DNA of 64,000 nt. Origin: Cellvibrio sp. OA-2007 (lineage in GTDB: Bacteria > Pseudomonadota > Gammaproteobacteria > Pseudomonadales > Cellvibrionaceae). The notes under the pieces were generated by a model. That model worked only from the letters and a program-made list of their open reading frames with translations, was not told where the DNA came from and did no database searches. The stretch lies in NCBI RefSeq assembly GCF_000953825.1, contig NZ_BBUL01000096.1:124001-188000 (forward strand), given 5' to 3'. The translations under genes were made by a program, and so were the position numbers. Positions 9,977-28,183 of the stretch are shown here, one piece after another; positions within the stretch are counted from its first letter, which is position 1, and every line of letters begins with the position of its first letter.

Positions 9977-10699
9977 ATGACCTACTGCGTTGCGATCAAA
10001 GTTGATGCCGGCCTGATTTTTTGCTCAGACTCGCGCACCAATGCGGGTGTTGATCAGGTGAGCACCTACAGCAAGATGTACCAGTTCGGCATTGAGGGCG
10101 ACCGTCAAATCGTCATTAACTCTGCCGGTAACCTTGCCACTACCCAATCTGTGATCGCCAAAATCCGCAAAGACATCAAAGATGGTGCCGATGTCAGCCT
10201 CGCTACGGTTGAGAGCATTCACGATGCCGCCGATTACGTCGGCGAGATCAGTATCGCTATTCAAGAGAAACATGCTCAACATAACAACAATGTGAGCTTT
10301 GAAGCCAGCTTCCTGCTCGGCGGGCAAATTGGCCTGGAATCACCAGCAGTCATGTTGATTTATCCGCAGGGCAATCACATCACCACCTCGGATCAAACCC
10401 CCTACCTGCAGATTGGCGAGAGCAAGTACGGCAAACCGATCCTGGACCGCGTGCTCAAACCGGAAACCGGCTTGGATACCGCCGCTCTCTGCGCATTGGT
10501 CTCTATGGATTCAACTATGAAGTCCAACCTCACCGTTGGCCCACCAATCGAACTCATGAGTTACGCCACCAACAGCGGTTTTATGCAACACACAGTGTTT
10601 GCTGCCGATAACCAATATCTGCACGAACTCACCAAATCCTGGGATCAGCTGATTGTGGCGGCATTCCTACAATTGCCACCACCGCCACCGCAGGTCTGA
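9977..10699 (+). CDS. Anbu-type proteasome-like peptidase
   Basis: The 240-residue protein begins MTYCVAIKVDAGLIFCSDSRTNAG. Removal of Met1 would expose Thr2 as an N-terminal nucleophile. Asp18 and Lys33 (YSKMYQF) sit where the proteasome/HslV family places its catalytic Asp and Lys. Length and sequence fit Anbu (ancestral beta subunit), a self-compartmentalising Ntn-hydrolase relative of HslV. Comparative genomics associates Anbu with transglutaminases, ATP-grasp and alpha-E proteins, and such genes follow here on the same strand. No ATPase partner is nearby. Its substrate is unknown, and proteolytic activity of Anbu has been hard to show. The C-terminus ends in a PPPPPP run. A strong terminator follows. 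Confidence 0.88.
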   Translation: MTYCVAIKVDAGLIFCSDSRTNAGVDQVSTYSKMYQFGIEGDRQIVINSAGNLATTQSVIAKIRKDIKDGADVSLATVESIHDAADYVGEISIAIQEKHAQHNNNVSFEASFLLGGQIGLESPAVMLIYPQGNHITTSDQTPYLQIGESKYGKPILDRVLKPETGLDTAALCALVSMDSTMKSNLTVGPPIELMSYATNSGFMQHTVFAADNQYLHELTKSWDQLIVAAFLQLPPPPPQV

Positions 10700-10720
10700 T
10701 TTGCCAGCACTGAAGAATGT

Positions 10721-10757
10721 AAAAGCGCCAGCATCCACTCGATACTGGCGCTTTTTT
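10721..10757 (+). terminator. Rho-independent terminator after the Anbu gene
   Basis: AAAAGCGCCAG (10721-10731) pairs perfectly with CTGGCGCTTTT (10745-10755) around a 13-nt loop, and a T6 tract follows the GC stem. The Anbu gene is therefore probably transcribed separately from the transglutaminase gene at 10989. Confidence 0.85.
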
Positions 10758-10852
10758 GTTTCAAGCCAACGCATTTGCTTAGCCCCTGCGCTTGTGGTGC
10801 AGTTATTGCCTTAGTAATAACAACAGCCCCTCAATCAATAAAACAGGTAAGC

Positions 10853-10875
10853 TAGGTCACACTCAGCGCGACCTA
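10853..10875. promoter_or_regulatory. Possible operator palindrome before the transglutaminase/DUF2126 gene
   Basis: TAGGTC (10853-10858) and GACCTA (10870-10875) form an interrupted dyad with an 11-nt spacer, about 115 nt before the start at 10989. It could be a regulator site or a chance dyad. Confidence 0.2.
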
Positions 10876-10988
10876 CTTAGCGTAACAACCATTGAGGATG
10901 ATAAGAACTTGCCCTTTTCCCAGTCTGGTACACACTTGAGTGCACCAGCATGATCCATAAACCGCACGATGCAGGAAGGAATTAACTT

Positions 10989-13900
10989 ATGGCTATTCGC
11001 GTTGCCATTCACCACAAGACCCAATATGCATTTGATCGTCTGACCTCACTCTTTCCCCATGTGCTGCGTTTGCGCCCAGCGCCCCATAGCCGCACCAAAA
11101 TTCACAGCTATTCGCTAAAAATTGAGCCCGCCGATCATTTCATCAATTGGCAACAAGATCCGTTTGGCAACTTTCAAGCGCGCTTGGTATTTCCCGAACA
11201 GACCAAAATGCTCTCGTTCGAGGTCGAACTGGTCGCCGATATGACCTCGATCAATCCCTTCGACTTTTTTGTGGAAGAGTATGCAGAGAACATCCCCTTT
11301 GAGTACGACGAGCAATTAAAGCGCGAGTTGGTTCCCTATCTCGAAATCAGCGAAAGCGGCCCGCAATTGATGGAGATAGTCAACAAAATCAAGGCCGATA
11401 TTCAGCATCGCCAAGTCAGTGAAAAACCTTGGGCGGTGAACGATTTTATGGTGAGCATCAACCAGCTGGTACAGCAGGCGATTGGTTATGGTGTGCGCCT
11501 TGAACCGGGTATTCAAACCTGTGAAGAAACCCTGACACTCGCTAAAGGTTCCTGCCGCGACAGCGCTTGGTTACTGGTGCAGATTTTCCGCCACCTGGGT
11601 TACGCCGCGCGTTTTGCCTCCGGTTATTTGGTGCAACTCACCGCGGACGTCAAAGCGCTCGATGGCCCCAGTGGTCCGGAAAAAGATTTCACCGATCTAC
11701 ATGCCTGGACCGAAATTTATATTCCCGGTGCCGGCTGGATCGGCCTTGACCCCACTTCCGGCCTGCTCGCTACTGAAGGGCATATCCCGCTCGCCTGCAC
11801 ACCCGACCCAATTTCTGCCGCGCCGATTACCGGCGCCACCAGCAAGTGCGAAGTGGAATTTTCTTACAGCAACGAAGTGTTCCGTATCCTCGAAGACCCG
11901 CGCGTCACCAAACCCTATACCGAGGAGCAGTGGCAAACCATTAACGCGCTCGGTGCGGCAGTAGACAAAGAATTAATCGAACAAGATGTACGCTTGACCA
12001 CCGGTGGTGAACCGACGTTTGTGTCTATTGACGATATGGAATCCGAGCAGTGGAATACCGGTGCACTCGGTGCCGATAAGTTGCGTCTCGCTAAAGATTT
12101 ATTGCTGCGCATGCGCAAAACCTTTGCACCTAATGGCCTGTTGCATTACGGACAAGGTAAGTGGTACCCAGGTGAAGAAGTGCCGCGCTGGGCGCTGGGC
12201 TGTTTCTGGCGCACCGATGGCCAAGCGCTGTGGAACAATCCAGATTTATTAGCGCGCGCCGATAAAAATTACGGCCTCTCGCACGTGGATGCAAAAAAAT
12301 TCGCGCAACGATTGTGTGAAAAAATTCGCGTCAATGGCGAACATTTAATTCCGGCTTACGAAGATGTGCTCTATTACCTCTGGGCAGAGCAAACGCTGCC
12401 GCATGATATAGATCCGTTAAAAGCCGATTTAAAAGATGATCTAGAACGGCGCCGGATTGCAAAATTATTAACGCGCGGATTAAATACCGAAAGCGGTTAC
12501 GTTTTACCGATTGAATGGAATTACCCCAACCAAAGTTGGTTAACTGGCCGCTGGAAGTTGCGTAACGATCAATTATTTTTAGTGCCCGGCGATTCACCGT
12601 TAGGCCTGCGTTTACCGCTCAACTCACTCGAATTCCCCAAACACGATTACGAGCGCTATCAGCCGGAAAACGATCCGCTCACTACACGTGAGCCATTAGC
12701 GCCAAGCGGCCAACAAGCCACGGCACTTGCGGCAGAAAAAAACGGCGCACGCAAAATGACTATTGCGCAAAAAGTTGCCGAGCAAAAAGCTGCATTGGCA
12801 AATGCCACTAGCCCTGAAGCACACAAACCCAATTATCTCGAAGCGGGTTATGTCATTCGCACGGCGATGTGTTTTGAAGCGCGCGATGGTCGTTTGCATT
12901 TATTTTTACCGCCCCTCACTTATCTCGAACACTACGTTGCATTGATCGAAGCGATTGAAGCAACCGCGGCCGAATTAAATATGCCGGTTGTGCTGGAAGG
13001 TTATGAGCCGCCAAAAGATTATCGCTTGAAGAAATTTTTAATTACCCCTGACCCGGGTGTGATTGAAGTGAATATTCATCCGGTAGAAACCTGGGCGGAT
13101 TTGGTTAACAACACCGAAGCACTTTATGAAGATGCCCGCCAGTGCCGCTTGGGCACCGAGAAATTTATGCTCGACGGCCGCCACTCAGGCACCGGCGGCG
13201 GCAACCATGTCACCTTCGGCGGCTCAACACCGGCGAACAGTCCATTTTTGCGCCGTCCGGATTTGTTGCGCAGCCTGGTTACTTATTGGCAGCATCACCC
13301 CGGCCTTTCCTATTTATTTTCCGGTTTATTTATTGGACCGACTAGCCAATCGCCGCGCGTCGATGAAGGCCGCGCAGAAATGCTGTACGAATTGGAAATC
13401 GCCTTTAAAGAAATGCCCGAAGGCATTGTCGATCAACCTTGGTTAGTTGATCGCCTGATGCGCAATTTATTAATCGACATCACCGGCAATACCCATCGCG
13501 CTGAGTTTTGTATCGATAAACTCTACGCCCCCGGCACCGCCAGTGGTCGCCAGGGTATTTTGGAGTTCCGCGGTTTTGAAATGCCGCCCCATGCGCGCAT
13601 GTCGCTAGTGCAAATTTTATTGTTGCGCTGTTTGATTAGCCGCTTCTGGAAAGAACCCTACAAAAAACCGCTAGTGCGCTGGGGCACTTTGCTGCACGAC
13701 AAATTTATGTTGCCGCACTATGTGTGGGAAGATTTGCGCGATGTGGTTAAAGATTTGAATGAACAAGGTTATCCATTCCAACTCGAATGGTTGGCGGCGT
13801 TTGAAGAATTTCGTTTCCCGCATTATGGCCGTGTGCAGTTGGACGATATTGAAATCGAATTGCGCTGGGCGATTGAACCCTGGCATGTGCTAGGTGAAGA

Positions 13901-14417
13901 AGTCAGCAGCTTCGGCACGTCGCGTTATGTGGATTCGTCCCTCGAACGCTTGCAAGTTAAAGTCAGCGGCTTAACACCGGGCCGTTATGTGCTCGCCTGT
14001 AATGGCCGCCGCGTGTGTTTGAATGCAACGGGAAAACACGGTGAATATGTCGGCGGCGTGCGCTACCGCGCTTGGCAGCCGCCCTCAGCCTTGCACCCGA
14101 CCATCGGTATTCATTCACCGCTAGTGTTTGACTTAATTGATACCTGGAACGGTAAAAGTATCGGCGGCTGCACCTATCACGTCAGCCATCCCGGTGGCCG
14201 CAGCTATGATCGCTTCCCGGTTAACGCCAATGAAGCCGAATCGCGCCGTGGTAATCGTTTCTTTGATATCAACCACACACCGGGAGCCTTACCGATCACA
14301 CCGGCCGGGGAAATTCTGCGTGAATTTTTTGAAAACAAACATCCACCCAGACCTATGGCACCGCCGCCAGAAGAACCGGCAGATGAATATCCACACACGC
14401 TGGATTTGCGTAAATAG
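10989..14417 (+). CDS. Transglutaminase-like protease fused to DUF2126 domain
   Basis: This 1142-residue cytoplasmic protein has two parts. Residues 1-300 are a bacterial transglutaminase-like cysteine protease module. It begins with the typical N-terminal domain (AIRVAIHHKTQYAFDRL) and carries a catalytic triad of Cys189 (GSCRDSAW), His238 (LHAWTEIYIPG) and Asp254 (GLDPTSG). Residues of about 330 to 1140 match the large DUF2126 region found fused to these enzymes, with TTGGEPTFVSIDD, YGQGKWYPGEE and DGRHSGTGGGNHVTFGG blocks. No signal peptide is present. The family lies next to ATP-grasp/alpha-E genes in many bacteria and is predicted to act on the peptides or amides those enzymes make. The substrate is unknown. 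The start follows an AGGAAGGAA ribosome binding site. Confidence 0.9.
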   Translation: MAIRVAIHHKTQYAFDRLTSLFPHVLRLRPAPHSRTKIHSYSLKIEPADHFINWQQDPFGNFQARLVFPEQTKMLSFEVELVADMTSINPFDFFVEEYAENIPFEYDEQLKRELVPYLEISESGPQLMEIVNKIKADIQHRQVSEKPWAVNDFMVSINQLVQQAIGYGVRLEPGIQTCEETLTLAKGSCRDSAWLLVQIFRHLGYAARFASGYLVQLTADVKALDGPSGPEKDFTDLHAWTEIYIPGAGWIGLDPTSGLLATEGHIPLACTPDPISAAPITGATSKCEVEFSYSNEVFRILEDPRVTKPYTEEQWQTINALGAAVDKELIEQDVRLTTGGEPTFVSIDDMESEQWNTGALGADKLRLAKDLLLRMRKTFAPNGLLHYGQGKWYPGEEVPRWALGCFWRTDGQALWNNPDLLARADKNYGLSHVDAKKFAQRLCEKIRVNGEHLIPAYEDVLYYLWAEQTLPHDIDPLKADLKDDLERRRIAKLLTRGLNTESGYVLPIEWNYPNQSWLTGRWKLRNDQLFLVPGDSPLGLRLPLNSLEFPKHDYERYQPENDPLTTREPLAPSGQQATALAAEKNGARKMTIAQKVAEQKAALANATSPEAHKPNYLEAGYVIRTAMCFEARDGRLHLFLPPLTYLEHYVALIEAIEATAAELNMPVVLEGYEPPKDYRLKKFLITPDPGVIEVNIHPVETWADLVNNTEALYEDARQCRLGTEKFMLDGRHSGTGGGNHVTFGGSTPANSPFLRRPDLLRSLVTYWQHHPGLSYLFSGLFIGPTSQSPRVDEGRAEMLYELEIAFKEMPEGIVDQPWLVDRLMRNLLIDITGNTHRAEFCIDKLYAPGTASGRQGILEFRGFEMPPHARMSLVQILLLRCLISRFWKEPYKKPLVRWGTLLHDKFMLPHYVWEDLRDVVKDLNEQGYPFQLEWLAAFEEFRFPHYGRVQLDDIEIELRWAIEPWHVLGEEVSSFGTSRYVDSSLERLQVKVSGLTPGRYVLACNGRRVCLNATGKHGEYVGGVRYRAWQPPSALHPTIGIHSPLVFDLIDTWNGKSIGGCTYHVSHPGGRSYDRFPVNANEAESRRGNRFFDINHTPGALPITPAGEILREFFENKHPPRPMAPPPEEPADEYPHTLDLRK

Positions 14418-14448
14418 ATGAAAAGACTGACTTAAGTTGATGGCACAT

Positions 14449-14609: not shown

Positions 14610-17168
14610 ATGAAACCTTATTCCACGCTTATGGAAAATCCGGTCACTACCAGCGATATTAAGGCGTTTATGTACCCCTCGCCCCTCGCTGGGATAGATG
14701 AAGCCTATGACAGCGAAGGCGGTATTCGCCCCCACTGGCGCTACCTACTGCACAGTTTGCAAACGCTGGGGCAAGACGCGATTGAAGAGCGGCAGCGCAA
14801 AACTCGCCGCATTCTGCGCGATGATGGTGCAACCTATAAAATTTACGATGAGCCAGATGCAAATCAAAGCTGGCAACTCAACCCCATCCCACTGCTCATT
14901 GACAGCGAAGAGTGGAACCAAATTGAAACCTCGCTGGTTGAACGCGCGGAATTATTTAACTTATTGCTGCAAGATATTTACGGTGAGCGCACACTGGTTC
15001 GCCAAGGTGTGATTCCGCCGGAATTATTATTTTCCCATCACGGATTTTTGCGCCCCTGTCATCAAATTAAATTGCCCGGCGATCACCAACTGATTTTGCA
15101 CGCTGCCGATTTGGCGCGCGCCCCCGATGGCACTATGCGCGTGATGGCCGACCGCACCCAAGCGCCTTCCGGTGCCGGTTACGCCTTAGAAAATCGCACA
15201 GTGATGAACCGCGTATTTCCCAGTTTGTTTCGCGATAGCCATGTGCATCGCCTGTCATTATTTTTTTCGCGCCTGCGCCAGCGTTTGCACGAATTAAATC
15301 CTAATGGCGGCATTGCGCGCATTGTAGTGCTCACCCCCGGTATTTATAACGAAGCGTATTTTGAACACGCCTATCTCGCCAACTATTTGGGTTTCCAATT
15401 AGTACAAGGCAGCGATTTGAGTGTGCGCAATGGTTATGTATGGATGAAAGCACTCGACGGTTTAAAACGTGTCGATGTGATTTTGCGCCGCGTGGATGAT
15501 GTCTATTGCGACCCAGTAGAGTTGCGCGGCGACTCACGTTTGGGTGTGCCCGGTTTATTAGAAGTTGCGCGTATGGGGCACGTGGCTATCGCCAACCCAC
15601 TCGGCTCCAGTGTGTTAGAAAATCCAGCGCTGCTGCGCTATTTGCCTGCCATCTCACAAGCGCTGTTAGGGCGCGACTTGCAAATGCCATCAGTCAAAAC
15701 CTGGTGGTGCGGCAATAGCGATGATTTGGAGTATGTATGCGCCAATTTAAAAGACCTGTTGATCAAACCTACCTATCGCCGCCCCGGCTTGTATGAAGTC
15801 TATGGCGCTGATCTGGACGATAAAAAATTACAGGCCTGGCAAAATCGTATTCGCAAAAATCCGCTGCAATTTGTTGCGCAGGAATATGTTGCCGGCGCGC
15901 AAACGCCCACCTGGCACCAAGGGCAAATTCAACCGCGCGCGTCAGTTTTACGCACCTTTGCCGTGGCCAGTGAAAGTTCTTATTCAGTGATGCCGGGCGG
16001 TTTAACCCGCGTTAATCTTGACGCAGACAAAAAAATTATTTCCAACCAACGCGGTTCCATCTCAAAAGACACCTGGGTGCTGGCATCGGAACCTGAAAAA
16101 CAAATTAGCTTACTCAATATAGATGCCCAATCCTCCAACGAAAGTACCAATGCGCTGCCCAGCCGCGTGGTAGAAAATTTATTTTGGATGGGGCGCTATG
16201 CCGAGCGCGCGGAATCCGCACTGCGTTTACTGCGCACTGTGTTTATTCAACTTAACAAAACCGAAAAATTGCCCGATCCGGTCTGTCGCACTTTATTGAG
16301 TGCCATCACCCATGTCACCGCAACCTATCCCGGTTTTACCAGCTTGCAAAATACGCTGTTTAAAAATCCTGAACCGGAAATGATTTCGATTATTTTAGAT
16401 CACCAGCGGCTCGGTAGTGTGGCCAATAATTTAATCGCCATGATCAATGCCGCAGAACAAGTGAAAGAACAATTTTCCAGCGATACCCAGCGGGTGATTA
16501 ACGATATTGGCGATCAGCTTGAGCAATTAAAACAAACACTGGAACCCAACACTCTTTCCGCACCGGAAGAAGCCTTGGCACCGCTAATTACGACTCTGCT
16601 CGCATTTGCTGGTTTGATTCACGAAAGCATGACCCGCGGCAATGGTTGGCACTTTATGGAAATGGGACGTCGCCTGGAGCGCGCGCTGCAAATTGTGAAC
16701 ACCTTGCGCTCACTATTGGTGACCGGTTTTGAAGAAATTGAACAAGAAACGCTGATTGAATCTAATTTGCTCTGCGGCGAAGCCTTGATTACCTATCGCC
16801 GCCGCTACCAAAATGGCATGCGTATCGAGCAAGGTTTGGAAATGATCATGCTCAACGCAAAAAATCCACGCTCGCTGATTTATCAGTTAACCCAATTAGA
16901 AGAACACTTTAGCAACCTGACTAACAATCAGGATGAATTCAGCGCCGAGCAAAAGTTATTATTGGAAGCCACCACCGCGCTAAGGCTCAGCGACATCAAA
17001 CTGCTGGCCAAAACCACCAATGGTATTCGCTCGGATTTGGATCAACTGCTGTCGCGCTTGCAATATTTAATTACCACCGCAACCAAAGCAATTGGCCAAC
17101 ATTATTTTGATCACACCGACGGGCCGCAGCTGTTGGTGAAAAATACCGAGTGGGAGGATCAACTATGA
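14610..17168 (+). CDS. Circularly permuted ATP-grasp / alpha-E domain fusion protein
   Basis: The 852-residue protein joins two modules that are usually separate. Residues of about 1-490 are a circularly permuted ATP-grasp type 2 domain with the blocks ENRTVMNRVFPSLF, LTPGIYNEAYFEHAYLA, GSDLSVRNG, LDGLKRVDVILRRVDD and VMPGGLTRVN. Residues of about 516-850 are an alpha-E domain beginning SRVVENLFWMGRYAERAES. ATP-grasp members are predicted amidoligases; alpha-E proteins are helical partners of unknown mechanism. The unfused homologues at 26729-28183 and 25757-26725 show the same blocks. The stop overlaps the next transglutaminase gene by 4 nt (ATGA), which indicates coupling. No similar fusion architecture occurs elsewhere in the window. 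Confidence 0.9.
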   Translation: MKPYSTLMENPVTTSDIKAFMYPSPLAGIDEAYDSEGGIRPHWRYLLHSLQTLGQDAIEERQRKTRRILRDDGATYKIYDEPDANQSWQLNPIPLLIDSEEWNQIETSLVERAELFNLLLQDIYGERTLVRQGVIPPELLFSHHGFLRPCHQIKLPGDHQLILHAADLARAPDGTMRVMADRTQAPSGAGYALENRTVMNRVFPSLFRDSHVHRLSLFFSRLRQRLHELNPNGGIARIVVLTPGIYNEAYFEHAYLANYLGFQLVQGSDLSVRNGYVWMKALDGLKRVDVILRRVDDVYCDPVELRGDSRLGVPGLLEVARMGHVAIANPLGSSVLENPALLRYLPAISQALLGRDLQMPSVKTWWCGNSDDLEYVCANLKDLLIKPTYRRPGLYEVYGADLDDKKLQAWQNRIRKNPLQFVAQEYVAGAQTPTWHQGQIQPRASVLRTFAVASESSYSVMPGGLTRVNLDADKKIISNQRGSISKDTWVLASEPEKQISLLNIDAQSSNESTNALPSRVVENLFWMGRYAERAESALRLLRTVFIQLNKTEKLPDPVCRTLLSAITHVTATYPGFTSLQNTLFKNPEPEMISIILDHQRLGSVANNLIAMINAAEQVKEQFSSDTQRVINDIGDQLEQLKQTLEPNTLSAPEEALAPLITTLLAFAGLIHESMTRGNGWHFMEMGRRLERALQIVNTLRSLLVTGFEEIEQETLIESNLLCGEALITYRRRYQNGMRIEQGLEMIMLNAKNPRSLIYQLTQLEEHFSNLTNNQDEFSAEQKLLLEATTALRLSDIKLLAKTTNGIRSDLDQLLSRLQYLITTATKAIGQHYFDHTDGPQLLVKNTEWEDQL

Positions 17169-18106
17169 AATACCGCATCCTCCACAGCACGCGCTATCAG
17201 TACGCATTATCCGTAAGTAACTGCTACAACCTCGCCTATGTATTGCCGCGCGCAACCGAGCGGCAGCGCATCGATAAATTGGATATTAAAGTCTCGCCAA
17301 TGGCGACAACCCGCACCATACGCACTGATTATTTTGGCAATCAGTTTTTACAATTTTCGATTGAAAAAGATCACACCGTATTGGATGTAAGTATCACCAG
17401 CGAGATTTATATTAAAGACGCAACCACCGACCCCAATCTCGATTTCGGCAATCCCTGCACTTACGTGAAGTATTTATTGCAACACAGTAAAGATTGGGAA
17501 ACGCTGTGTGCGCGTGAATTTATGCTCGACTCGCCCATGGTGCAAGCACATAGCGATTTAGCCGAATACGCCGCGCCATCGTTTAGCGACGACCGCCCTT
17601 TTTTATCGGCAGTAATGGAATTAACCCAACGAATTTTTGCTGACTTCACTTACGATCCAACGTTTTCAGATGTCGCCACGCCGCTGGCTGAAGTGCTAAA
17701 ACACAAACGCGGTGTGTGCCAAGACTTTGCGCATTTTGCGATTGGCTGTTTGCGCTCACTGGGTTTTCCCGCGCGTTATGTCAGCGGCTATTTAGAAACG
17801 TTGCCGCCACCCGGGCAAAAAAAATTAGTTGGCGCCGATGCTACCCACGCATGGTTTGCAGTCTATTCCCCCGGTGAAGGCTGGTACGAATTTGACCCCA
17901 CCAATAATAAAATCACCGGCGAACAACACATCACCACCGCCTGGGGCCGCGACTACTCCGATGTAACACCACTCAAAGGCGTTATCTTCGGCGGCGGTCA
18001 CTCACCACAATTATTTGTATCAGTCGATGTGCGACGCATAGCAGAAGATTTCGTTCAAACTCAGACTCAAACCCAGAGTCAGAGCCAAAGCCAAATTCAA
18101 CGCTAA
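17165..18106 (+). CDS. Transglutaminase-like cysteine protease
   Basis: The 313-residue protein starts at ATG 17165, which overlaps the previous stop as ATGA; five upstream codons of open frame are rejected. The N-terminal domain begins MKYRILHSTRYQYALSVSNC and the core follows. The catalytic residues are Cys185 (GVCQDFAHFAIGCLRSLG), His in DATHAWFAVY and Asp in EFDPTNN, all present. The C-terminus ends in a low-complexity run of Gln alternating with Thr or Ser, about 15 residues. It belongs with the ATP-grasp/alpha-E fusion just upstream and is probably made in coupled amounts. Substrate unknown; cytoplasmic, with no signal peptide. Confidence 0.9.
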   Translation: MKYRILHSTRYQYALSVSNCYNLAYVLPRATERQRIDKLDIKVSPMATTRTIRTDYFGNQFLQFSIEKDHTVLDVSITSEIYIKDATTDPNLDFGNPCTYVKYLLQHSKDWETLCAREFMLDSPMVQAHSDLAEYAAPSFSDDRPFLSAVMELTQRIFADFTYDPTFSDVATPLAEVLKHKRGVCQDFAHFAIGCLRSLGFPARYVSGYLETLPPPGQKKLVGADATHAWFAVYSPGEGWYEFDPTNNKITGEQHITTAWGRDYSDVTPLKGVIFGGGHSPQLFVSVDVRRIAEDFVQTQTQTQSQSQSQIQR

Positions 18107-18504
18107 ACTCCCCCCCAAACCTCCTTCGGAATCTACAGTCATCCATTCTTGAACTGTAGATTCCCGCCAAACAAAAGCTCGCTTAGTTATACTGTGTTAT
18201 TGACCCGTCCGGGCAAGCCCGCTAGTGTTCAACAATAAATTATTTATTGAAGGCATAAGCAAGCAGGTTGTTGCGGGTCGCGCAGACTGAATTTACTAAC
18301 CGCAACAGATTGAAGCTCATTACTTCTCCCCAAAGCGGACAGTCTGATATATTCGCCTTGTTCAATCATGATGGATTAACAAGAAGCTTTTTAGATCGCT
18401 ACATGCTTTTGAAAAAGATAGGCGGTTGTGTTACACATGACTGACGCTATCGATGAAATGTTAGATTAATCCGTGCATTAATTTCAGAATATCAAGGAGA
18501 GTCA
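18107..18504. other. Intergenic stretch before the TIR gene
   Basis: About 400 bases without a convincing gene. It opens with a perfect 12-bp stem, GGAATCTACAGT (18128-18139) and ACTGTAGATTCC (18153-18164), around a 13-nt loop. This may end the transglutaminase transcript, though no U-tract follows. From about 18220 the composition becomes AT-rich, as in the following two genes, and stop codons interrupt all frames. No attachment site, insertion sequence end or integron attC could be recognised. Confidence 0.6.
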
Positions 18505-19404: not shown

Positions 19405-19525
19405 CAAACAATAAAATGGGTTACCTTAAAGTAACAACTTTTTCTTTACACTTCGTTCCACTTTACGGGAAAAATTCGATTTAAAAAATATCGGTTATCA
19501 CAATCACTGAAAGGAAAATTCTCGA

Positions 19526-20389
19526 ATGCAAGTTAATTCACTACCCAATCGAAGCTGGCTTCATCAAGTTTGGAATTATAAAACATCTATAATTGGCGGA
19601 TTTCTTGCAATTGTATCCTTATCTCTAGCGCATTACGCCGGCTTTTTAATGAAGGTACCACTACATATTGTAGCCGTGGCCGGTATGCCGCTTGCTAAAA
19701 GCGTCACTGCAACATTTCTATTCTATTTGTTTTTTTCTGCTGTTTCCGCACGCGTAATTACCTCTATGTTACAGCTCATTCTATTACCCTTTTTCGCAGT
19801 ACTCGATAGACTAGAGCCTGGATTTCGTCGGAGAATGAATCGGGCTGATCAGCGTCGCTTTGTCCGTTCGCACAGTCGAACCATAAAATGGGAAGGCTAT
19901 ATTTGGCTAATTATTCAAGCATTGTTTTTTCTACTACTAATGCTTGGAATTTATGTGAAGTTTTCTATTAACTTGGCCAACGGCGTCGCTCTCTTCGCGT
20001 CCTTGGCATTCATTATTTTATCTGGCCTTGTGCGATCTGGATTTTTTCTTCAGCCCAAATTGCACACCTTCATCAGAAAAATAAAGAGCCGTCCAGCACG
20101 ATCAGGTCGTGCCGTATCTGGAGCATTTGTGACAGTTACGGGTGCACTAATTATTATTTCGTTTCTCTTAGGAGGTATGCGAGCGAATTTGTTGCGAGAA
20201 CAAGAACCTCACTTCGTAATGACAAAAGAATTTTCCGGTAGAGCCACAGTAATTGCGAGCGCTGAAGGATCGCTTCTATTATTTCAGAAAGAAGGAAGTG
20301 AATTACGCTATATTTATTTTTCTACTGATTTTACCGCCACAATCGAAACCAAACCTGTGTTCTCACCTTTAAATATTGACAAAATGTAG
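19526..20389 (+). CDS. Uncharacterised multi-pass membrane protein
   Basis: I do not recognise this 287-residue protein. It has about five hydrophobic segments, near residues 20-41, 58-92 (long, perhaps two), 122-144, 153-174 and 195-217. A basic loop rich in Arg lies at 95-118 (RRRMNRADQRRF). A soluble C-terminal region of about 65 residues follows and looks beta-rich. It lies 121 nt after the TIR gene on the same strand and shares its AT-rich base composition, so it may belong to the same acquired segment. A ribosome binding site (GAAAGGAAA) precedes ATG 19526. A role as a membrane partner of the TIR protein is possible but unsupported beyond position. Confidence 0.6.
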   Translation: MQVNSLPNRSWLHQVWNYKTSIIGGFLAIVSLSLAHYAGFLMKVPLHIVAVAGMPLAKSVTATFLFYLFFSAVSARVITSMLQLILLPFFAVLDRLEPGFRRRMNRADQRRFVRSHSRTIKWEGYIWLIIQALFFLLLMLGIYVKFSINLANGVALFASLAFIILSGLVRSGFFLQPKLHTFIRKIKSRPARSGRAVSGAFVTVTGALIIISFLLGGMRANLLREQEPHFVMTKEFSGRATVIASAEGSLLLFQKEGSELRYIYFSTDFTATIETKPVFSPLNIDKM

Positions 20390-20527
20390 TACGTAGATTG
20401 AGCAGTTATGCCCAATCTACCTCAAGCATCAACCCATACCTTTGGCGAAGACGCCCAACAACTAAGTCAAAGAACGCGTTAAAATATTACAACTAAGCAA
20501 CCGCGTTTTATTTTCAAGGAATTCACC

Positions 20528-21085
20528 ATGAAACGCTTTTTATCTATTTTACTGCTAGGCTTCGCAGCAAGTGCGGCGCATGCCCAAGTGGATTGGCCAA
20601 TTGTGCTGCAACTGAAATATTCCCCACTGGGTATTATTGATGCCGATGAAGATAAGTTTGATCATGACGATGGGAGTTATGAAAAATACGAAATGGATTT
20701 TGAACGCAGTTGGGGTGGCAGGTTATTTGTTGGCCCGATTTACGTTGCGGCTACTCGCAACGTGACCGACATCAACACCCCGACTCCCGATGCCATAGTT
20801 GAAACATTGTCCATCGGTTTGGGCGGTATTGGTTATGACCAATTCGCCAGTGACTCAGGTTTCTATCTCATGGGTGGCTTGGGGGTCGGTGCCGGTAGAT
20901 TCAAATTCAAGCAACCCGAATTGAATGACTGGGAGGCGATGATTGAAGGTAATGCAGAAATTGGCCTGCGTCTTCAAGAGCATTTGCTGTTGGGTGTAGG
21001 AGTGGATTATCAACACTTTGGTGAGCCAGGCGAAAGCAAAGCACATTTATGGAATTTATATATAGGCACAGGTTTAACCTTTTAA
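20528..21085 (+). CDS. Predicted outer-membrane beta-barrel protein
   Basis: The 185-residue protein has a clear signal peptide cleaved after AHA near residue 19 (MKRFLSILLLGFAASAAHA). The mature part alternates polar and hydrophobic residues in strand-length blocks: GGRLFVGPIYVAATR, LSIGLGGIGYDQFA and FYLMGGLGVGAGRFKF. It ends in LYIGTGLTF, and the terminal Phe is typical of barrels handled by the BAM machinery. It resembles small 8-stranded barrels of the OmpW/OmpA-like type, but no family could be assigned. A ribosome binding site, CAAGGAATTCACC, precedes the start. The flavin reductase gene starts one base after its stop, so the two are probably an operon. Confidence 0.7.
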   Translation: MKRFLSILLLGFAASAAHAQVDWPIVLQLKYSPLGIIDADEDKFDHDDGSYEKYEMDFERSWGGRLFVGPIYVAATRNVTDINTPTPDAIVETLSIGLGGIGYDQFASDSGFYLMGGLGVGAGRFKFKQPELNDWEAMIEGNAEIGLRLQEHLLLGVGVDYQHFGEPGESKAHLWNLYIGTGLTF

Positions 21086-21086
21086 C

Positions 21087-21659
21087 ATGACAAAACACAC
21101 AGCTATTCCACTCAAAGACAGCTACAAACTTTTTAACCACGGCCCTGTCAGCATAGTGACCAGCGCTTATGGAAACCAGCGAAATATTATGGCGGCCTCC
21201 TGGACTATGCCGGTGGATTTTTCACCGGCTAAAGTCGCTGTAGTAATCGACAAAAATACATTTACGCGTGAACTGGTTGATGCCAGTGGTGAATTTGCTT
21301 TGCAATTTCCTATGCGAAAAATTGCCAAGCTGACGTTGGATGTTGGCGATTCCTCCGGCCGAGATGAGGATAAATTTTCTCGCTATGGGATAAAAACTTT
21401 CCCCTCCTCCATCATCGGCGCACCATTAATTGAAGATTGCATCGGCTGGCTGGAATGCAAGGTGATAAAACAAGGTGCAGAGTCGATGGATGTCATCATC
21501 GGTGAAGTTGTTGCAGCTTATGCAGACGCAGAACAATTTATTGATGGCCGCTGGCATTTTTCTGATAATCCGCAAAAACGCAGCATTCACTATATGGCAG
21601 GTGGCGAGTTTTATATGACGGGTGAAGCATTTACAACGTCGAGTGGTTATTCAGAATAA
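21087..21659 (+). CDS. Flavin reductase-like domain protein
   Basis: The 190-residue protein matches the flavin reductase-like (FMN-binding split-barrel, DIM6/NTAB) family. It has the early block GPVSIVTSAYGNQRNIMAASW, where the substrate and FMN phosphate are bound, then PVDFSPAKVAVVIDKNTFT and GEFALQFP. Such proteins reduce FMN with NAD(P)H or bind FMN in small oxidoreductase systems. No partner monooxygenase is nearby. It starts one base after the outer-membrane protein stop and is followed by a strong terminator. Confidence 0.85.
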   Translation: MTKHTAIPLKDSYKLFNHGPVSIVTSAYGNQRNIMAASWTMPVDFSPAKVAVVIDKNTFTRELVDASGEFALQFPMRKIAKLTLDVGDSSGRDEDKFSRYGIKTFPSSIIGAPLIEDCIGWLECKVIKQGAESMDVIIGEVVAAYADAEQFIDGRWHFSDNPQKRSIHYMAGGEFYMTGEAFTTSSGYSE

Positions 21660-21691
21660 AAAAATCGTGTAAAAAATTATGATTATTCAAC

Positions 21692-21722
21692 AAAAAAACC
21701 CGGCTTTTGGCCGGGTTTTTTA
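21692..21722. terminator. Bidirectional rho-independent terminator
   Basis: A 6-bp GC stem (CCCGGC with GCCGGG around a TTTTG loop) is flanked by A7 on the left and T7 on the right. It can therefore end the flavin reductase transcript (+) and the convergent chitinase transcript (-). Confidence 0.85.
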
Positions 21723-21765
21723 ACAGCACTCGCAATAACGAGTGCTTTATTTTACTGCCAAGGTT

Positions 21766-24700
21766 TTATTGCGGATTCAAACCCATAATCTGTAACACTT
21801 TTATAAAGTGCGCTTTTCTGTCTGCCAAACCATCTACTGCGCCACTGATTGGGCAAGTGGAATCCGGGCAGCCACGGTTAACAATTCCCGATACCGCGTT
21901 GATGAATGCATCGCCTTTCATACCGCCATCAACATAAGCTTTTAATTGCGCATAGTAATCCCAGTTGTACGCAGGGTCGTGGTAGCCCTGCACTTCATTC
22001 ATCCAGAAAAACAAACCGGCGATCCATTTAATTTCACCATGTTCGGTAGATGAACAAACCAGTTGTGGATTGGAACAGAGATCCATATCCGCATACAAAG
22101 GATCAGCTGGTGCGGGTGTTACCGCAATGCCATCGACTACCTTACCGGCATAGGCTGGATCAACATGGCTGCGACCGAGGAAGTGATTCAACTTACCAAA
22201 GTTCAAACGACCCGTTGTTTGGATAACACCACGCCCCCACCAACCACAACCTTCGATACTTTTGCCCGCACTGCCATTCCATACAAATTTACCCGCTTTT
22301 TGGCCATCGTACACTTTGCCCTCTTCGCGCAGATAAGCTTGCGCTGATTTATCAACGGTAGTGACTGCCGGGAACCAGGCGCTGTAATCCCAATAGCCAA
22401 CACTGCCATTTACTAACAAACCTTTTTTCGCCAGCACTCTGTCTGGTGCAGTAAACAAAGGCCCCGGTGCACCGTACCATTTGGCGTTGGTGTTGGCGGT
22501 GATTTCCATTTTAGGATTGCGCGGGCAAGAGTATGGATTATCGCGACCGGTGATTGGGTCTTGGCCGTAAGAGGCATAATCCTGTTGCAGCTGACCACAC
22601 GACGCAGAGATTGGATAGTTCACCGGATCACCGGTATTAATTGACCAGTTATTTTCATCACACGCATCGTATTGAATGGTTTCTTTCATACTTTGCGCAA
22701 GGAATGCAGCAATCGCTACTTTGGCGTACTTAGCGTTAGTTGCATTATCTTTGGTCGGATCGATCAACCAAAATTTGGTTGGCCCTACACCTACGTTGTG
22801 CATTGCATTCAAAGCGACGAGGAAATCAGCCCACTTGTACACGTTGGATGGTTCTTTGGTATTCGATGGTGTGGTGTACAAAAACGCTTGGTTATTCATC
22901 GCACTTTCCACACTCACCAAATCGCTATTCAACTGTGCAATGGTGGTAATCGCGCTAGCCGTTGTTAGTTGGCCAGAACCATACAATGGCATACCTCCCG
23001 CCGCTTTGTTGGCTGCAATTTTATTTTTCAACCAACCATTATCCGTCGCACTGGTTGCTGTTGGCACAACACCCGTACCCGCTTTGCTTCCCCACATAAT
23101 GGCAAACACGTTGCTATAGGCGGCGCGGCGCAATGCCGATGCACCCCAATCATAACCGGGCGTTTGTTGTAACAATGCATTCACGTTACTGGCACCCGCA
23201 TAAGTCGATGCATTAAGTGGGATGCTCAACACTTCACTGCGAATATTACTTACCACAGTACCGATAGTTTTATCGCCCATGAAATAAGTCCCTGCAGTGC
23301 CTGAATCATTGGCCAGATTGTAACTGCCGGTTGACTCACTCACGCTTGCCAAGTGGCCGCCGGGAATTTGCCACAACATCGCCGGGATCGACAATGAATC
23401 AGTTACCTGACGCACATAGTTCAAATAGTTTTCCCACTCTTTTGCACCAAAGGCGTAATTGCCGCGCGCAGAAGGCGAGAAGCCATCATCAGCTGATTTA
23501 TCGAACGCAAGGAAATCGGGACGGTAAGTATTGGTGGTATAAGCACCGATGCTATTGGCAAAGGTTGATACCGAATAAGCCGCTGCATCCCATACATCTT
23601 GCAAGCCAGCAAAATCAGTGTGCACCCAATTGCTATTGCCTGGGCTGGATACACTTGCGACCCAACCGAACGACACATCGGGGCTTAGGCGTTTAATCAA
23701 TAAATTGTGCGCTTGCACCCAACCGGTGATGTTGTTTTGCAATGCACTATCCACTTCGGCTTTCAAACTATTCAGATTGTAAATCGCCGCAAGCGATTGA
23801 CTGCCAATTGCATAATTTGCTTCGTTGGTTAACGCATCTTTCACCGCTTGTTTAACATCAATCGCAACCCAGTTACCTGCGCTGCCAAATGCGGTTTTAA
23901 AGCTGCCATTTTGATTAGCCTGCCATTGCGCTAATAAGCCAGCATTCAAAACCAATGCACCGGGATTAACGTGAGCGGAATCTTTATTGGCTTGCACTGT
24001 AGCGGCTACGCGAATCAAATTTTGGAAATGTTTAACCAGATTAGCGCTATCCAAAATATCTTCAGCACCTATGCCAGATACATCTGCCGTTGCCACACCA
24101 ATTACCGGCAGTACTTTTGCGCCGCTGACATTCTCAATATTGCGCGCTTGCGCAATTGTTTGCGCGGTAACATTTGGAACTATCACTTGGCCGCGATCGC
24201 CAGTGCCATTGCCCTCGTTGGCAAAAATAGAATCTACGCCAGACGCCGCCAACGCATCATTTGCTGTTGCGTTGTTATCGGTGACTGAACCCATTGCCAA
24301 ATCACTTGGCCAACCTTTCACTTTAAGGCTTACCGGATTAGCACGGGTAGGATAATAACCACTAATCACTAGGCTGACGCTGCTACTGCTGGAAGAAACG
24401 GACGGCGCAGAAGACGATACAACCACCACCGAACTTGAAGAACTTTTTGACGAACTGCTCACCACAATCACGCTTAATGAACTTGAGGAGCTCGATTTGC
24501 TGCTGCTCACTGCAGACACGCTGGATGGCGCAACTGAACTGCTTGCAGTAACGTCACAATTTTTCACGAAGGTCCAGGAGCCATCACTACCGGGAATACT
24601 TTGTGTCCACCAATTCGCTTTGTATGCAACACCTTGATATTGCATTTGATCGCCGCCAGTCGCATAGGAAGGATTACCCGCCCAATCTTTTTGCGGCCAA

Positions 24701-25151
24701 TTGGGATACACATTTATCGCCGCACAAATTCCACTCGCTACCGATGCGGTACTGGAAGAAGATTTACTTGCAGGTGCAACACTGCTGGATGTAGGGATAC
24801 TGGAGGGCGCGGCACTGCTAGACGCAGGAACACTTGAGGGCGCAGCGCTGCTGGACGCGGGAACACTGGAAAGTGCAACGCTACTTGTGTAGTAGCTACA
24901 TCACATGCACCCAGTTCAGCCCAAGCATTGCTGGCCGCCCAACCAACATCCGGCTCATAGGGGCCGCCGACTGAACACCAACCGCCGACTGTGCAACTGA
25001 ACGCTTTATTGACATTTTTAACCTTCGCGCCGTTCGCATAAGTTGCACCATTGGTATATGGCGTCAACTGACTGCAGTCGTATGCGTAGGCTGTTGTCGA
25101 TAGCAACAACCCCGCTGACGACACGAGCATTAATGTTGAAATTTTTCTCAT
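21766..25151 (-). pseudogene. Multidomain GH19 chitinase, interrupted by a frameshift
   Basis: Read on the minus strand, the gene starts at 25151 with a signal peptide (MRKISTLMLVSSAGLLLST) and a CBM5/12-like chitin-binding domain ending AWAELGAC. Between 24900 and about 24870 the frame is lost. One frame runs into a Pro/Arg-rich nonsense tail ending at 24738. The other continues as a poly-Ser linker, a second CBM5/12-like domain (YPNWPQKDW), another Ser linker, an uncharacterised region of about 500 residues, and a C-terminal GH19 catalytic domain (AFLAQSMKETIQYD, CGWWGRGVIQTTGRLNFG) ending at 21766. A single missing base would restore a secreted chitinase of about 1,100 residues. Sequencing error cannot be excluded. 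Confidence 0.8.
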
Positions 25152-25183
25152 TGTTTATCCCTCGTGATTGATTTAATTTTTTT

Positions 25184-25216
25184 CGGGCAACAGAACGCCC
25201 GCCCCTGTAACCGGGG
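25184..25216 (-). promoter_or_regulatory. Paired hairpins in the chitinase 5' leader
   Basis: On the minus strand the leader reads CCCC-loop-GGGG (25216-25202) directly followed by CGGGC-GTTCTGTT-GCCCG (25201-25184). Next come an A-rich stretch and the CACGAGGG ribosome binding site. A similar hairpin and CACGAGG arrangement precedes the tonB gene at 38237. It matches no riboswitch class I can name. Confidence 0.35.
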
Positions 25217-25686
25217 TGATTTTTTATCTAACTAAATTCACATAAAAACTACACAGCAGTTATTCCAGCGGAACCCTGCCCTAATAGAAAGGGGGCGTAA
25301 CAAATCCTGTAGCAGGCATAATTCATTAATTATTTTGGGCAATACAACACCGTTTCGAGTTGTACACTCAAATCAAAAAAATGATCAGCGGACTATTCAG
25401 CGATTAACCCGTCATTCGTTAGATTTTTTTATTATTCCCTTGTTGTAACTAACAGCAATCCCAACAAAAGCGTTTCCAACAAATATCGATAACCAACTAG
25501 CAAAGCGACAATTAAACCAACTGTCGTCATGTTGAAAACTACGCCAAAAGGACAACGTTGTCAATAATATCTAGAAGGTGGGAAAATTGGTAACAGGGGG
25601 AATGTAATACCGTAAATTATGCAGTTTTCAGGATATTGCCAAACTGATCAGTAATTCTTCTAGAGAGAAAACAAGAAAAACGCACA

Positions 25687-25714
25687 TAAAAAAAGACCCG
25701 CTCTGTGGCGGGTC
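25687..25714 (-). terminator. Rho-independent terminator of the alpha-E/ATP-grasp operon
   Basis: On the minus strand GACCCGC (25714-25708) and GCGGGTC (25701-25695) pair over 7 bp around a 6-nt loop, followed by a T7 run. It lies 43 nt after the alpha-E stop. Confidence 0.85.
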
Positions 25715-25756
25715 AGTGATCTCAGAGAGACAACACGCAAGAAAATCATGGATGAC

Positions 25757-26725
25757 TTAAGCTGATTTTTGCTCTTGGGATACTACTCCCTGCAGAAACC
25801 AGGTTTCGGCAATTCTGAAATGCAAATTACCAATCTCCAATTGCAACTCATCGATATATTCGTGCAAGCCGGATTTTAGTAATTCATCCACATCGGCTTC
25901 ATCCAATTTGTTTTGAATATTGACAATGGCAGCCAATACTTTTTCACTGTTGGGCAATGCCCATAAACACTGTTCCAATTGTTTAAGGCAGTGTGCAACA
26001 GCACGAGGGAAGTCTTCGTTTTGCAACAAAAAAGTCACCACTGCATTGGCGTTAACGCGGTCGCGAACATGCTGGCGATACATTTGGTAGGCACTGAGGG
26101 AGCGTAATACACTCATCCACAAAATATTGTCGTAAGGCTCCAGCTTTTCAGCACCGCCGGCCGACAAGTGCGGCAACAGATTTACCAAACCTGCATCCAC
26201 AATACGCGTACTCATATCGGCGCGTTCAATATTGCGACCAATGCGCAGTAAATCGTAAGCATTGTTGTGGCTCATACAACCCGCGAGCAAGCCAGAGAAT
26301 TGCTGCACACTGCTGATGACATGCAACAAAATTATGCTGCGATCGCGACGCGACGTTACATTTTCAGCGCGGTCGCGGATGTAGTGATACAAATCATTAA
26401 TTAACTCCCACGCCTCCATCGGCATGGTTTCACGAGTAATACGCGAATTTTCCCGGGCAAAACTGAGCGAGTTAATTAATGAAGCCGGATTTTTTTTATC
26501 CGCCAGAATAAAATTCACTACGGTTTTTTCATCAGCCAATTGGGTATCGCGCTCGAAGTAGCTGCCGGTGCCACTAATATCAATCAGCGAGCCCCAACCG
26601 ACGCGCACACCTGCCGGCAAATCCAATAATAGATTTGAGTTGACGTTGACAAGTCGCGCAATATTTTCGCTGCGCTCCATATAACGACCCAACCAATAAA
26701 TTCGCTCTGCTACACGTGACAACAT
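25757..26725 (-). CDS. Alpha-E domain protein (stand-alone)
   Basis: The 322-residue all-helical protein begins MLSRVAERIYWLGRYMERSEN, the diagnostic start of alpha-E (DUF403) proteins. Other family blocks include FAREN near residue 90, IGRNIERADMSTRIVD, and LPNSEKVLA near the C-terminus. It is paired in families with circularly permuted ATP-grasp proteins and is predicted to act with them in making a peptide or amide bond. Here the ATP-grasp gene ends 3 nt upstream. A GGAGGATTAATCA ribosome binding site covers the junction. It is homologous to the C-terminal half of the fusion protein at 14610-17168. A terminator follows, so the operon holds just two genes. Confidence 0.9.
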   Translation of the reverse strand: MLSRVAERIYWLGRYMERSENIARLVNVNSNLLLDLPAGVRVGWGSLIDISGTGSYFERDTQLADEKTVVNFILADKKNPASLINSLSFARENSRITRETMPMEAWELINDLYHYIRDRAENVTSRRDRSIILLHVISSVQQFSGLLAGCMSHNNAYDLLRIGRNIERADMSTRIVDAGLVNLLPHLSAGGAEKLEPYDNILWMSVLRSLSAYQMYRQHVRDRVNANAVVTFLLQNEDFPRAVAHCLKQLEQCLWALPNSEKVLAAIVNIQNKLDEADVDELLKSGLHEYIDELQLEIGNLHFRIAETWFLQGVVSQEQKSA

Positions 26726-26728
26726 TGA

Positions 26729-28183
26729 TTAATCCTCCACCACAATCCAGGTATCTTTACTGCCACCACCTTGTGATGAGTTCACCACATAGGAACCCTT
26801 GCGCATAGCAACACGCGTTAACCCACCGGGAGTGACGCAACTTTCACGCCCCTGCAATACAAATGGGCGCAAATCGATATGGCGCGGTTCGGCATTACCA
26901 TTAGTGAGAATCGGTGCGGTGGATAGAGAAATTAACGGCTGCGCCATATAGTTGCGCGGATCGGCTTTAATACGCAGGGCAAATTCTTCCAGTTCTTTTT
27001 TGCTCGCTTGCGGGCCGATAATCATGCCGTAACCACCCGATTCATTTGCCGGTTTAACCACCAGCTTATCGAGATTGGCGAGCACGTAATCGCACTGCTT
27101 CTTATCGACACACAGATAACTCGGCACATTGGGCAGAATGGGTTCTTCACCCAAATAATATTTAATCATCGCCGGCACAAAGGTGTAGATCACCTTGTCA
27201 TCCGCCACACCCGCACCAGGCGCATTAGCGAGCGCAACATTACCCTTTAACCAGGCGCGCATTAAACCGCGAACACCGAGCACCGAATCCGGATTAAACA
27301 TGTCCGGATCTAAAAATAAATCATCGATACGACGATAAATAACATCGACACGCTTTAAACCATCAATGCTGCGCATATACACACAGTCATCGCTGTCGAC
27401 AACCAAGTCACTACCCTCAACTAATTCCACCCCCATTTGTTGCGCGAGGTAGGAATGTTCAAAATAGGCAGAGTTATAAATGCCTGGGGTGAGCACTACA
27501 ACTTCAGGGCGATCAGCCTTGCGCGGCGATAAAGACGCGAGTGTATCGAACAGCTGGTTGGGATAGTCGGTGACAGGAACAATATTGTGATTTTCAAATA
27601 ACTCAGGGAAAACACGCTTGGTTACTTTGCGATTCTCCAGCATGTAGGAAACGCCAGAGGGCACGCGCAAATTATCTTCCAGAACAAAAAACTCGCCTTT
27701 GTCATCGCGAATCAAATCGCTGCCGCAGATATGGGACCACACACCATAGGCCGGCTTCATGCCCATACATTCTTTGCGGAAGTTGACCGAGTTTTCAAAC
27801 AAGTATGCGGGTACAACCTTGTCTTTAATGATTTTTTGGTCGTTGTAAATGTCATTGATAAAACAGTTGAGCGCCGTTAAACGTTGAATCAGCCCGCGTT
27901 CTGTTTTTTGCCATTCACGCTGCGGGATAATGCGCGGGATAATATCAAACGGCCACTCGCGGTCGATGTTGCCTGCGTCGCTGTATACCGTAAATGAAAT
28001 ACCCATCGTTTTAATGGCTAGCTCAGCGGACAGCTTGCGCTCTTGCAACTCCGCGCCGGTCAGTGAGGCGAGATATTGGGCGAGATGTTTGGTTTCAGGT
28101 CTGGGCTTGCCGGGCGAGCCAATTAATTCGTCGTAAAAATTGCCAGAATGGTAATTCTGCCAATCAATTTTCATTTCACTCAT
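26729..28183 (-). CDS. Circularly permuted ATP-grasp type 2 protein (stand-alone)
   Basis: The 484-residue protein starts at ATG 28183, because AAGGAAG sits 5 nt before it; an in-frame ATG at 28201 lacks such a site. Family blocks are ENRKVTKRVFPELF, LTPGIYNSAYFEHSYLAQQ, EGSDLVV, IDGLKRVDVIYRRIDDLFLDP, KPANESGGYGMIIGP and VTPGGLTRVA. These proteins have a permuted ATP-grasp fold and are predicted carboxylate-amine ligases. It is a paralogue of the N-terminal half of the fusion at 14610. With the downstream alpha-E gene it forms the conventional two-gene form of the same module. Confidence 0.9.
   Translation of the reverse strand: MSEMKIDWQNYHSGNFYDELIGSPGKPRPETKHLAQYLASLTGAELQERKLSAELAIKTMGISFTVYSDAGNIDREWPFDIIPRIIPQREWQKTERGLIQRLTALNCFINDIYNDQKIIKDKVVPAYLFENSVNFRKECMGMKPAYGVWSHICGSDLIRDDKGEFFVLEDNLRVPSGVSYMLENRKVTKRVFPELFENHNIVPVTDYPNQLFDTLASLSPRKADRPEVVVLTPGIYNSAYFEHSYLAQQMGVELVEGSDLVVDSDDCVYMRSIDGLKRVDVIYRRIDDLFLDPDMFNPDSVLGVRGLMRAWLKGNVALANAPGAGVADDKVIYTFVPAMIKYYLGEEPILPNVPSYLCVDKKQCDYVLANLDKLVVKPANESGGYGMIIGPQASKKELEEFALRIKADPRNYMAQPLISLSTAPILTNGNAEPRHIDLRPFVLQGRESCVTPGGLTRVAMRKGSYVVNSSQGGGSKDTWIVVED

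Follow-up and report, generated by a model that had tools for sequence, protein, structure and literature searches.

A putative amide-forming and amide-cutting system in Cellvibrio, split over two loci with one intact ATP-grasp/alpha-E pair and a fused, predicted pseudo-ligase

Cellvibrio sp. OA-2007 encodes, within a stretch of 64,000 nucleotides (nt) (contig NZ_BBUL01000096.1, positions 124,001 to 188,000; hereafter the window), the protein Anbu (ancestral beta subunit), two transglutaminase (TG)-like proteins, and two sets of a circularly permuted ATP-grasp domain and an alpha-E domain, one set fused in a single gene near Anbu and the other set as two separate genes on the opposite strand. 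Do these genes make up two ligase systems or one, and which ATP-grasp protein is the enzyme? The gene set is widespread in bacteria, and its function has been predicted and has remained unproven since 2009. The prediction by Iyer et al. reportedly comprised a circularly permuted ATP-grasp, alpha-E, a transglutaminase, a glutamine synthetase (GS)-like ligase, and Anbu. As cited in two later papers (PMC5666114, PMC6376114), Iyer et al. (2009) assigned the same linked families to a peptide-synthesis or tagging system. We lean towards a reading in which the two loci form one rearranged pathway that makes and cuts an amide (isopeptide-like) bond and is probably induced by nitrogen limitation, with the unfused pair as its hub and the fused copy as a dead-ligase adaptor.

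All genes named in the initial annotation are present as open, domain-complete reading frames (Table 1), and the CP_ATPgrasp and Alpha-E domains score far above the Pfam cut-offs in fused and unfused genes alike. Its account of Anbu with Thr2, Asp18, and Lys33, of two TG-like proteases with intact catalytic Cys, of an ATP-grasp/alpha-E fusion, and of an unfused pair on the other strand is borne out: the three Anbu residues (Thr1, Asp17, and Lys32 without Met1) are kept in 44, 45, and 44 of 45 aligned proteins, the Cys, His, and Asp of the TG triads in 128, 129, and 128 of 129 rows covering TG2-type proteins and the TG domain, and the pair, said to be 9 kb away, lies 8.6 kb beyond the fused gene and 7.65 kb beyond the second TG-like gene, TG2 (gap 18106-25757). 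What had been overlooked is that residues 286-1141 of the large transglutaminase match DUF2126, a "putative amidoligase" (1344 bits) with a probable glutamine-synthetase-like fold. Its residues E693, N695, N739, H740, E859, and R861 are invariant in 53/53 aligned proteins and may resemble GS motifs.

The unfused ATP-grasp protein, a homologue of which has been solved as 3N6X, has a CP_ATPgrasp domain with both the E-x-N metal motif and the Gly-rich nucleotide loop, and E-x-N is kept in 84/84 of its relatives. The fused copy has the ATP-grasp fold and lacks the metal motif. In three overlapping sets of 55, 12, and 80 fused sequences no domain has both E-x-N residues, the loop is lost and variable (GG in 1/55 and 1/80), and arginine stands at the position of N177 in 44/55, 10/12, and 76/80, the last set reaching across phyla. 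The fused copy evolves faster and is kept in many bacterial phyla, and its loss of catalytic residues marks it as a predicted pseudo-ligase that has been conserved. We found no open-access paper that calls this ATP-grasp inactive; Iyer et al. (2009) may discuss it. Long alpha-E frames in four genomes (G254, G326, G320, and G094) were considered as active fusions and rejected, being overlapping frames accompanied by a separate ATP-grasp open reading frame (ORF) that keeps E-x-N.

To follow these genes we used samples of 61 genomes from the same family, 115 from the order, and 185 from the class (G000 is common to all three and G057 to order and family); the ATP-grasp family search covered the 61-genome sample. 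Open-frame length served first to tell fused from unfused genes, and for most genomes of the order and family samples the assignment was then seen on the fetched loci; for the class, we read 12 of 15 fused genes and, among the unfused ones, three doubtful cases. The 80-locus set holds the best 80 among the matches listed, overlaps the sampled genomes (L232, L239, L242), and contributes 28 unfused ATP-grasp ORFs of >400 amino acids (aa). Rows dropped by length were 3/87 for ATP-grasp (all G022), 1/86 for alpha-E, 2/57 for the fused protein (G022, G059), 2/47 for Anbu (G092, two frames), 3/56 for TG-DUF2126, and 3/79 for TG, and the fused gene of G044, which straddles two fetched stretches, lies outside these counts.

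The fused copy tracks DUF2126, not Anbu: it accompanies DUF2126 in 32/32 family, 28/28 order, and 13/35 class genomes, and it occurs in none of the 39 different Anbu-only genomes (0/6 family, 0/16 order, and 0/18 class, G057 being in two samples). An obligatory partnership with DUF2126, which we considered, thus holds in order and family and fails in the class. An intact TG2 gene lies directly downstream of the fused gene in 57/57 mapped loci, 51 of which show an overlap or a spacing of at most 10 nt, and a TG2 gene stands there in 76/78 loci of the 80-locus set. A strict script found 67 of the latter; its 13 misses were nine TG2 genes that start inside the fused gene, two contig ends (L246, L264), and two loci without TG2 (L248, L270). 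The closest solved structure to TG2 by sequence is 3ISR. Of the genomes with the fused gene in the three samples, all but G129 (68% complete) and G059 (520 contigs) also encode unfused alpha-E.

The distribution of the unfused pair argues for sharing. Among the same-family genomes alpha-E is present in 38/38 with Anbu or DUF2126 and in 0/23 others (Fisher p 2.7e-17), and CP-ATP-grasp is likewise present in 38/61; the corresponding figures for alpha-E are 44/44 in the order, with nine further genomes having alpha-E without either, and 50/53 in the class, with five such genomes. Taken separately, alpha-E accompanies DUF2126 in 32/32, 28/28, and 35/35 genomes of the three samples and Anbu in 23/23 family, 26/26 order, and 45/48 class genomes. 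Anbu-only genomes have one unfused alpha-E in 36/39 cases and none in three. Where Anbu and DUF2126 occur together, separate systems would predict two unfused alpha-E genes, and we find one in 17/17 family, 9/10 order, and 27/30 class genomes, or 51 of 55 different genomes (the exceptions are G003, G213, G271, and G289), and two in only 4/55, which points to one hub rather than two modules.

The initial annotation had treated these families as one predicted amide-making and amide-cutting system with no established substrate, and the genome-level co-occurrence of Anbu or DUF2126 with alpha-E and ATP-grasp upholds that view, alpha-E being found in the family exactly where either is found. Its proposal of two ligase modules, for two products or as backup, is not supported, given the loss of E-x-N and the Gly loop from the fused copy and the tie of that copy to DUF2126. 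It had also named two findings that would speak against the system. Absence of the ATP- and Mg-binding residues from both copies is true of the fused copy and untrue of the unfused one; as for Anbu unlinked to the other families, 25 mapped genomes contain Anbu as well as DUF2126, and in 12 of them the fetched stretch around Anbu holds no other gene of the system, yet Anbu co-occurs with alpha-E in nearly all genomes. Separately, G251 (contig C39, ~7480-7927) carries alpha-E gene fragments near DUF2126 and an intact unfused alpha-E with Anbu on another contig; a redundant pair may be in the course of being lost there.

How the split arose is suggested by three layouts among the mapped loci: convergent (ATP-grasp, alpha-E, and a zinc-ribbon/Peptidase_Mx metallopeptidase, facing Anbu), collinear (ATP-grasp, alpha-E, TG, Anbu), and a DUF2126 type (ATP-grasp, alpha-E, TG-DUF2126, fused gene, TG2; variants occur). 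The unfused ATP-grasp of the window falls within the convergent clade, together with those of G115, G144, G046, G057, G147, G131, G154, and G171 (nine rows, support 98), and in G057, G109, G131, G144, G147, and G154 the unfused pair has retained a nearby gene that resembles a 2OG oxygenase (the family name, 2OG-Fe(II) oxygenase, is our reading). The fused gene of the window groups with those of genus-mates, among them G162, which has an unfused pair belonging to the collinear Anbu type, so that within one genus the DUF2126/fused/TG2 module stands beside two Anbu-linked types of pair. G025 and G109 have only a collinear-type pair, and in the window, G115, G144, G162, G025, and G109 the only unfused pair is of an Anbu type. 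From these sequence groupings, the split layout appears to be a rearrangement of a convergent Anbu cluster. An oxygenase with an ATP-grasp protein also occurs in fungal E-64 synthesis (PMC12568646), probably a coincidence.

Between Anbu and the pair, 11/13 convergent loci encode a Zn-metallopeptidase and the other two a TG, whereas 11/12 collinear loci encode a TG. Such exchange speaks for the TG acting as a hydrolase rather than cross-linking proteins. The zinc-ribbon/Peptidase_Mx gene (PF10005 and PF15887 in the three scanned) follows alpha-E immediately, where the transglutaminase would otherwise stand, in G046, G057, G078, G040, G064, G077, G024, G154, G171, G131, and G147 (loci among L092-L103 and L162-L165), and its family has no match in the genome of the window, G115, or G144. 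When neighbours within 4 kb were clustered, every family other than the known parts was limited to 14 genomes or fewer, and conserved extra components were rejected; the commonest extra neighbour looks like an ABC ATPase, a broad family.

Both loci carry sigma54-like sites, and such sequence matches are enriched and recur in genus-mates, which suggests, from sequence, a single nitrogen regulon. Sites were scored against a weighted consensus, and probabilities come from 60 single-base shuffles per region. The site before the ATP-grasp gene reaches 0.91 of the consensus score, with 0/60 shuffles as good, and is identical in G115 (where the stretch covers just 159 nt upstream of the ATP-grasp gene) and similar in G144; that before TG-DUF2126 reaches 0.81 and recurs in G115, G144, and G162, where one to a few positions differ and the surrounding DNA is poorly conserved. 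At a threshold of at most 5% of shuffles as good, sites precede 45/86 ATP-grasp, 16/55 TG-DUF2126, 3/56 fused, and 1/46 Anbu genes; the fused gene is usually operon-internal. Published observations point towards nitrogen control as well: I35_5080-83 of Burkholderia cenocepacia depend on NtrC and sigma54 (PMC5491218), Anbu is raised in nitrogen-limited Pseudomonas putida (PMC5666114), marine metagenomes show an association of these families with domains of urea metabolism (PMC3597751), and COG3484, a proteasome-type protease, is listed among predicted sigma54 targets (PMC12316311). We take COG3484 to be Anbu. Its listing contrasts with the near-absence of sites before Anbu in our count; in collinear operons Anbu, as the last gene, could be read from the promoter of the first. 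An inverted-repeat-like stretch around ACACTTGAGTGCACC (~10928-10952, plus strand), more symmetric in G115 and G144, lies in the interval from the sigma54-like site to the start of TG-DUF2126 and is a possible regulator site.

Table 1. Coordinates of the system and its flank in the window
Feature	Position	Strand	Remarks
Anbu, Ntn-hydrolase fold	9977..10699	+	PF00227; T2, D18, K33 intact
sigma54-like -24/-12 element TGGTGCAGTTATTGCC	10795..10810	+	194 nt upstream of TG-DUF2126 gene; weak alone
TG-like peptidase domain (~1-280; C189/H238/D254) fused to DUF2126 (286-1142)	10989..14417	+	
Fused ATP-grasp (predicted pseudo-ligase) + alpha-E	14610..17168	+	E-x-N replaced by A180-D-R182 (DRTQ); Gly-rich loop gone
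Codons A180-D181-R182, in place of E-D-N of the unfused ATP-grasp	15147..15155	+	
TG2, TG-like peptidase (C190/H233/D249)	17150..18106	+	Overlaps 3' end of fused gene
Unfused alpha-E protein	25757..26725	-	PF04168, 295 bits
Unfused circularly permuted ATP-grasp	26729..28201	-	E175-D176-N177 and SGGYG Gly loop intact; PF14403, 558 bits
Codons E175-D176-N177 (E-x-N metal motif)	27671..27679	-	
sigma54-like -24/-12 element TGGCAATGCTTTTGCA	28346..28361	-	160 nt upstream of ATP-grasp gene
Putative 2OG-Fe(II) oxygenase, upstream of ATP-grasp gene	28523..29137	-	Flank marker, not a claimed component

In the pathway that we propose, the unfused ATP-grasp and alpha-E, whose residues are intact, would activate a carboxylate with ATP and join it to an amine, as the shared hub. 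DUF2126, probably GS-like, would be a second real ligase that carries its own TG-like peptidase domain. The fused copy, having kept the fold, lost the metal motif and nucleotide loop, and being co-encoded with TG2, would most likely serve as an adaptor that brings TG2 to the ligase product, by recognising that product or by docking on the active ligase. TG2, the fused TG domain, and Anbu would act as amide hydrolases that can stand in for one another, trimming or recycling the product, a role that the Zn-metallopeptidase may take in sister clades. A tentative extension, which we hold with less confidence, is that the fused copy is a dead writer turned reader that keeps the product-binding site and hands the product to TG2. 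If true, ligase, pseudo-ligase, and hydrolase would make up a circuit around an amide conjugate under nitrogen control, either a protein tag or a conjugate for storage, and Anbu, TG, or Zn-metallopeptidase would be its exchangeable erasers.

Other explanations account for part of these data. That the two loci are functionally unrelated, Anbu and the unfused pair having nothing to do with an independent DUF2126/fused/TG2 system nearby, would agree with the solitary Anbu stretches and with the rarity of sigma54-like sites before Anbu; we nonetheless think it quite improbable, for a DUF2126 system working by itself would be expected to come with an unfused pair of its own, which is the case in DUF2126 genomes lacking Anbu. 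In the window and the five genomes named above the only pair is Anbu-type; all sampled DUF2126 genomes have alpha-E, and few genomes with both have two unfused copies. Two working ATP-grasp/alpha-E ligases are very unlikely in our view, even though two complete sets with high-scoring domains are encoded and the fused form is widespread and maintained: the fused copy is without E-x-N and the Gly loop, the unfused copy number stays mostly flat when Anbu and DUF2126 are both present, and none of the sampled Anbu-only genomes has the fused copy. The fused domain may instead have been repurposed, with the DRTQ-PSG motif as a new active site (e.g., for metal-independent transfer or hydrolysis). Conservation of the replacement motif and the large retention of D162, R290, D298, N326, and K383 fit this, and PafA/Dop offer a precedent of one ligase fold for ligation and hydrolysis (PMC7947786), but the nucleotide loop is gone and the hydrolase TG2 is already co-encoded, and we regard repurposing as unlikely.

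Several observations weigh against the single pathway with a dead-ligase adaptor. The fused domain mostly keeps D162 (70/80), R290, D298, N326, and K383 (68/80), and some ligand binding may therefore remain; the residue equivalence to Escherichia coli Gss is based on motif and fold, hhalign having given no alignment between the families, and Gly160 takes the position of the Gss arginine that lies two residues ahead of the Asp. The fused gene is absent from 22/35 class DUF2126 genomes and hence optional, and it occurs without DUF2126 in eight genomes (six order, two class). As for regulation, the TG-DUF2126 site is weak alone (12% of shuffles are as good), 41/86 ATP-grasp genes have no sigma54-like site at the threshold, and in the sister clade G131, G154, and G171 we saw no counterpart of the window's ATP-grasp site at the corresponding alignment position. 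Anbu occurs without alpha-E in three class genomes, G192 and G339, both with partial Anbu matches, and G240 (78% complete). In the published assays as described, Anbu showed no peptidase activity, no tested peptide being cleaved, and no specific interaction of Yersinia bercovieri Anbu with its operon partners was detected (PMC6376114).

The Anbu of the window is related by sequence to solved Anbu rather than to HslV or the proteasome: it matches five PDB sequences (E <= 0.001), 5LOY, 5NYW, 5LOX, 5NYJ, and 5NYF, all Anbu or designed Anbu. Two of these entries are titled only "Peptidase"; 5NYW is presumably Anbu. The other, 5LOX, is Anbu according to PMC8665760. Its gene surroundings can be compared with the four-gene Anbu operon of Y. 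bercovieri (PMC6376114), whose ATP-grasp releases phosphate, and with P. aeruginosa Anbu (PMC5666114): the Anbu catalytic residues, an unfused ATP-grasp and alpha-E, and a TG-like partner are shared, whereas Anbu in the window adjoins TG-DUF2126, the fused gene, and TG2, with the unfused pair ~15 kb away on the other strand. The B. cenocepacia cluster I35_5080-83 (PMC5491218) likewise combines DUF404/DUF407 (ATP-grasp), DUF403 (alpha-E), a TG, and a large TG protein under NtrC and sigma54; it is a single cluster, and the passages on it name no fused ATP-grasp/alpha-E, whereas the window has two groups, each with a sigma54-like element. From the system of Iyer et al. (2009) the window differs in its parts being split over two operons, in the missing Zn-metallopeptidase of the sister clades, and in a fused ATP-grasp without metal-binding residues.

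Glutathionylspermidine synthetase, the peptide-spermidine ligases YgiC/YjfC, and Cp1B have the ATP-grasp fold in common with the window proteins. We know of no alpha-E and of no Anbu or TG partner in these. PafA/Dop pupylation with the proteasome, RimK/RimB, and RloABC (PMC12239564) belong to other ligase families and share a writer/eraser logic, in which a hydrolase or an inactive enzyme partners a ligase. The transglutaminase domain of RloB is inactive, so that the inactive partner is a transglutaminase in Rlo and, as predicted here, a ligase in the window. The system is thus known as a prediction, to which we add the split layout, the putative pseudo-ligase, and the shared-pair rule. By naming the likely enzyme among the ATP-grasp proteins, the shared unfused pair, and the apparently dead copy coupled to TG2, the analysis gives the vague idea of a "peptide-tag system" a form open to specific tests; it also cautions against a ligase assay of the fused protein such as the initial annotation had proposed.

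Minor observations concern individual genomes and the flanks. Anbu lies in two overlapping frames in G092 (L121), a possible decaying gene, as may also be the partial Anbu genes of G192 and G339, which lack alpha-E. DUF2126 matches are fragmentary in G116, G145, and G159, and five class genomes (G353, G213, G324, G218, and G332) have, beside the full-length protein, a second one of ~713 aa that matches parts of DUF2126 (~23-165 and 343-826). Soon after TG2 the window encodes a TIR-domain protein (18505-19404, plus strand; PF13676; PADLOC ThsB-like match, E 4.5e-24), followed by an ORF (19526-20389) with no Pfam match; neither has a homologue in the fetched G115 and G144 loci, and the two are a possible anti-phage insertion. 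A putative chitinase-like secreted gene (21766-25151, minus strand; name inferred) is split at a serine-rich linker into frames of 137 and 981 aa, being one 3.4-kb open frame in the relative G144, and is either broken or phase-variable in the window.

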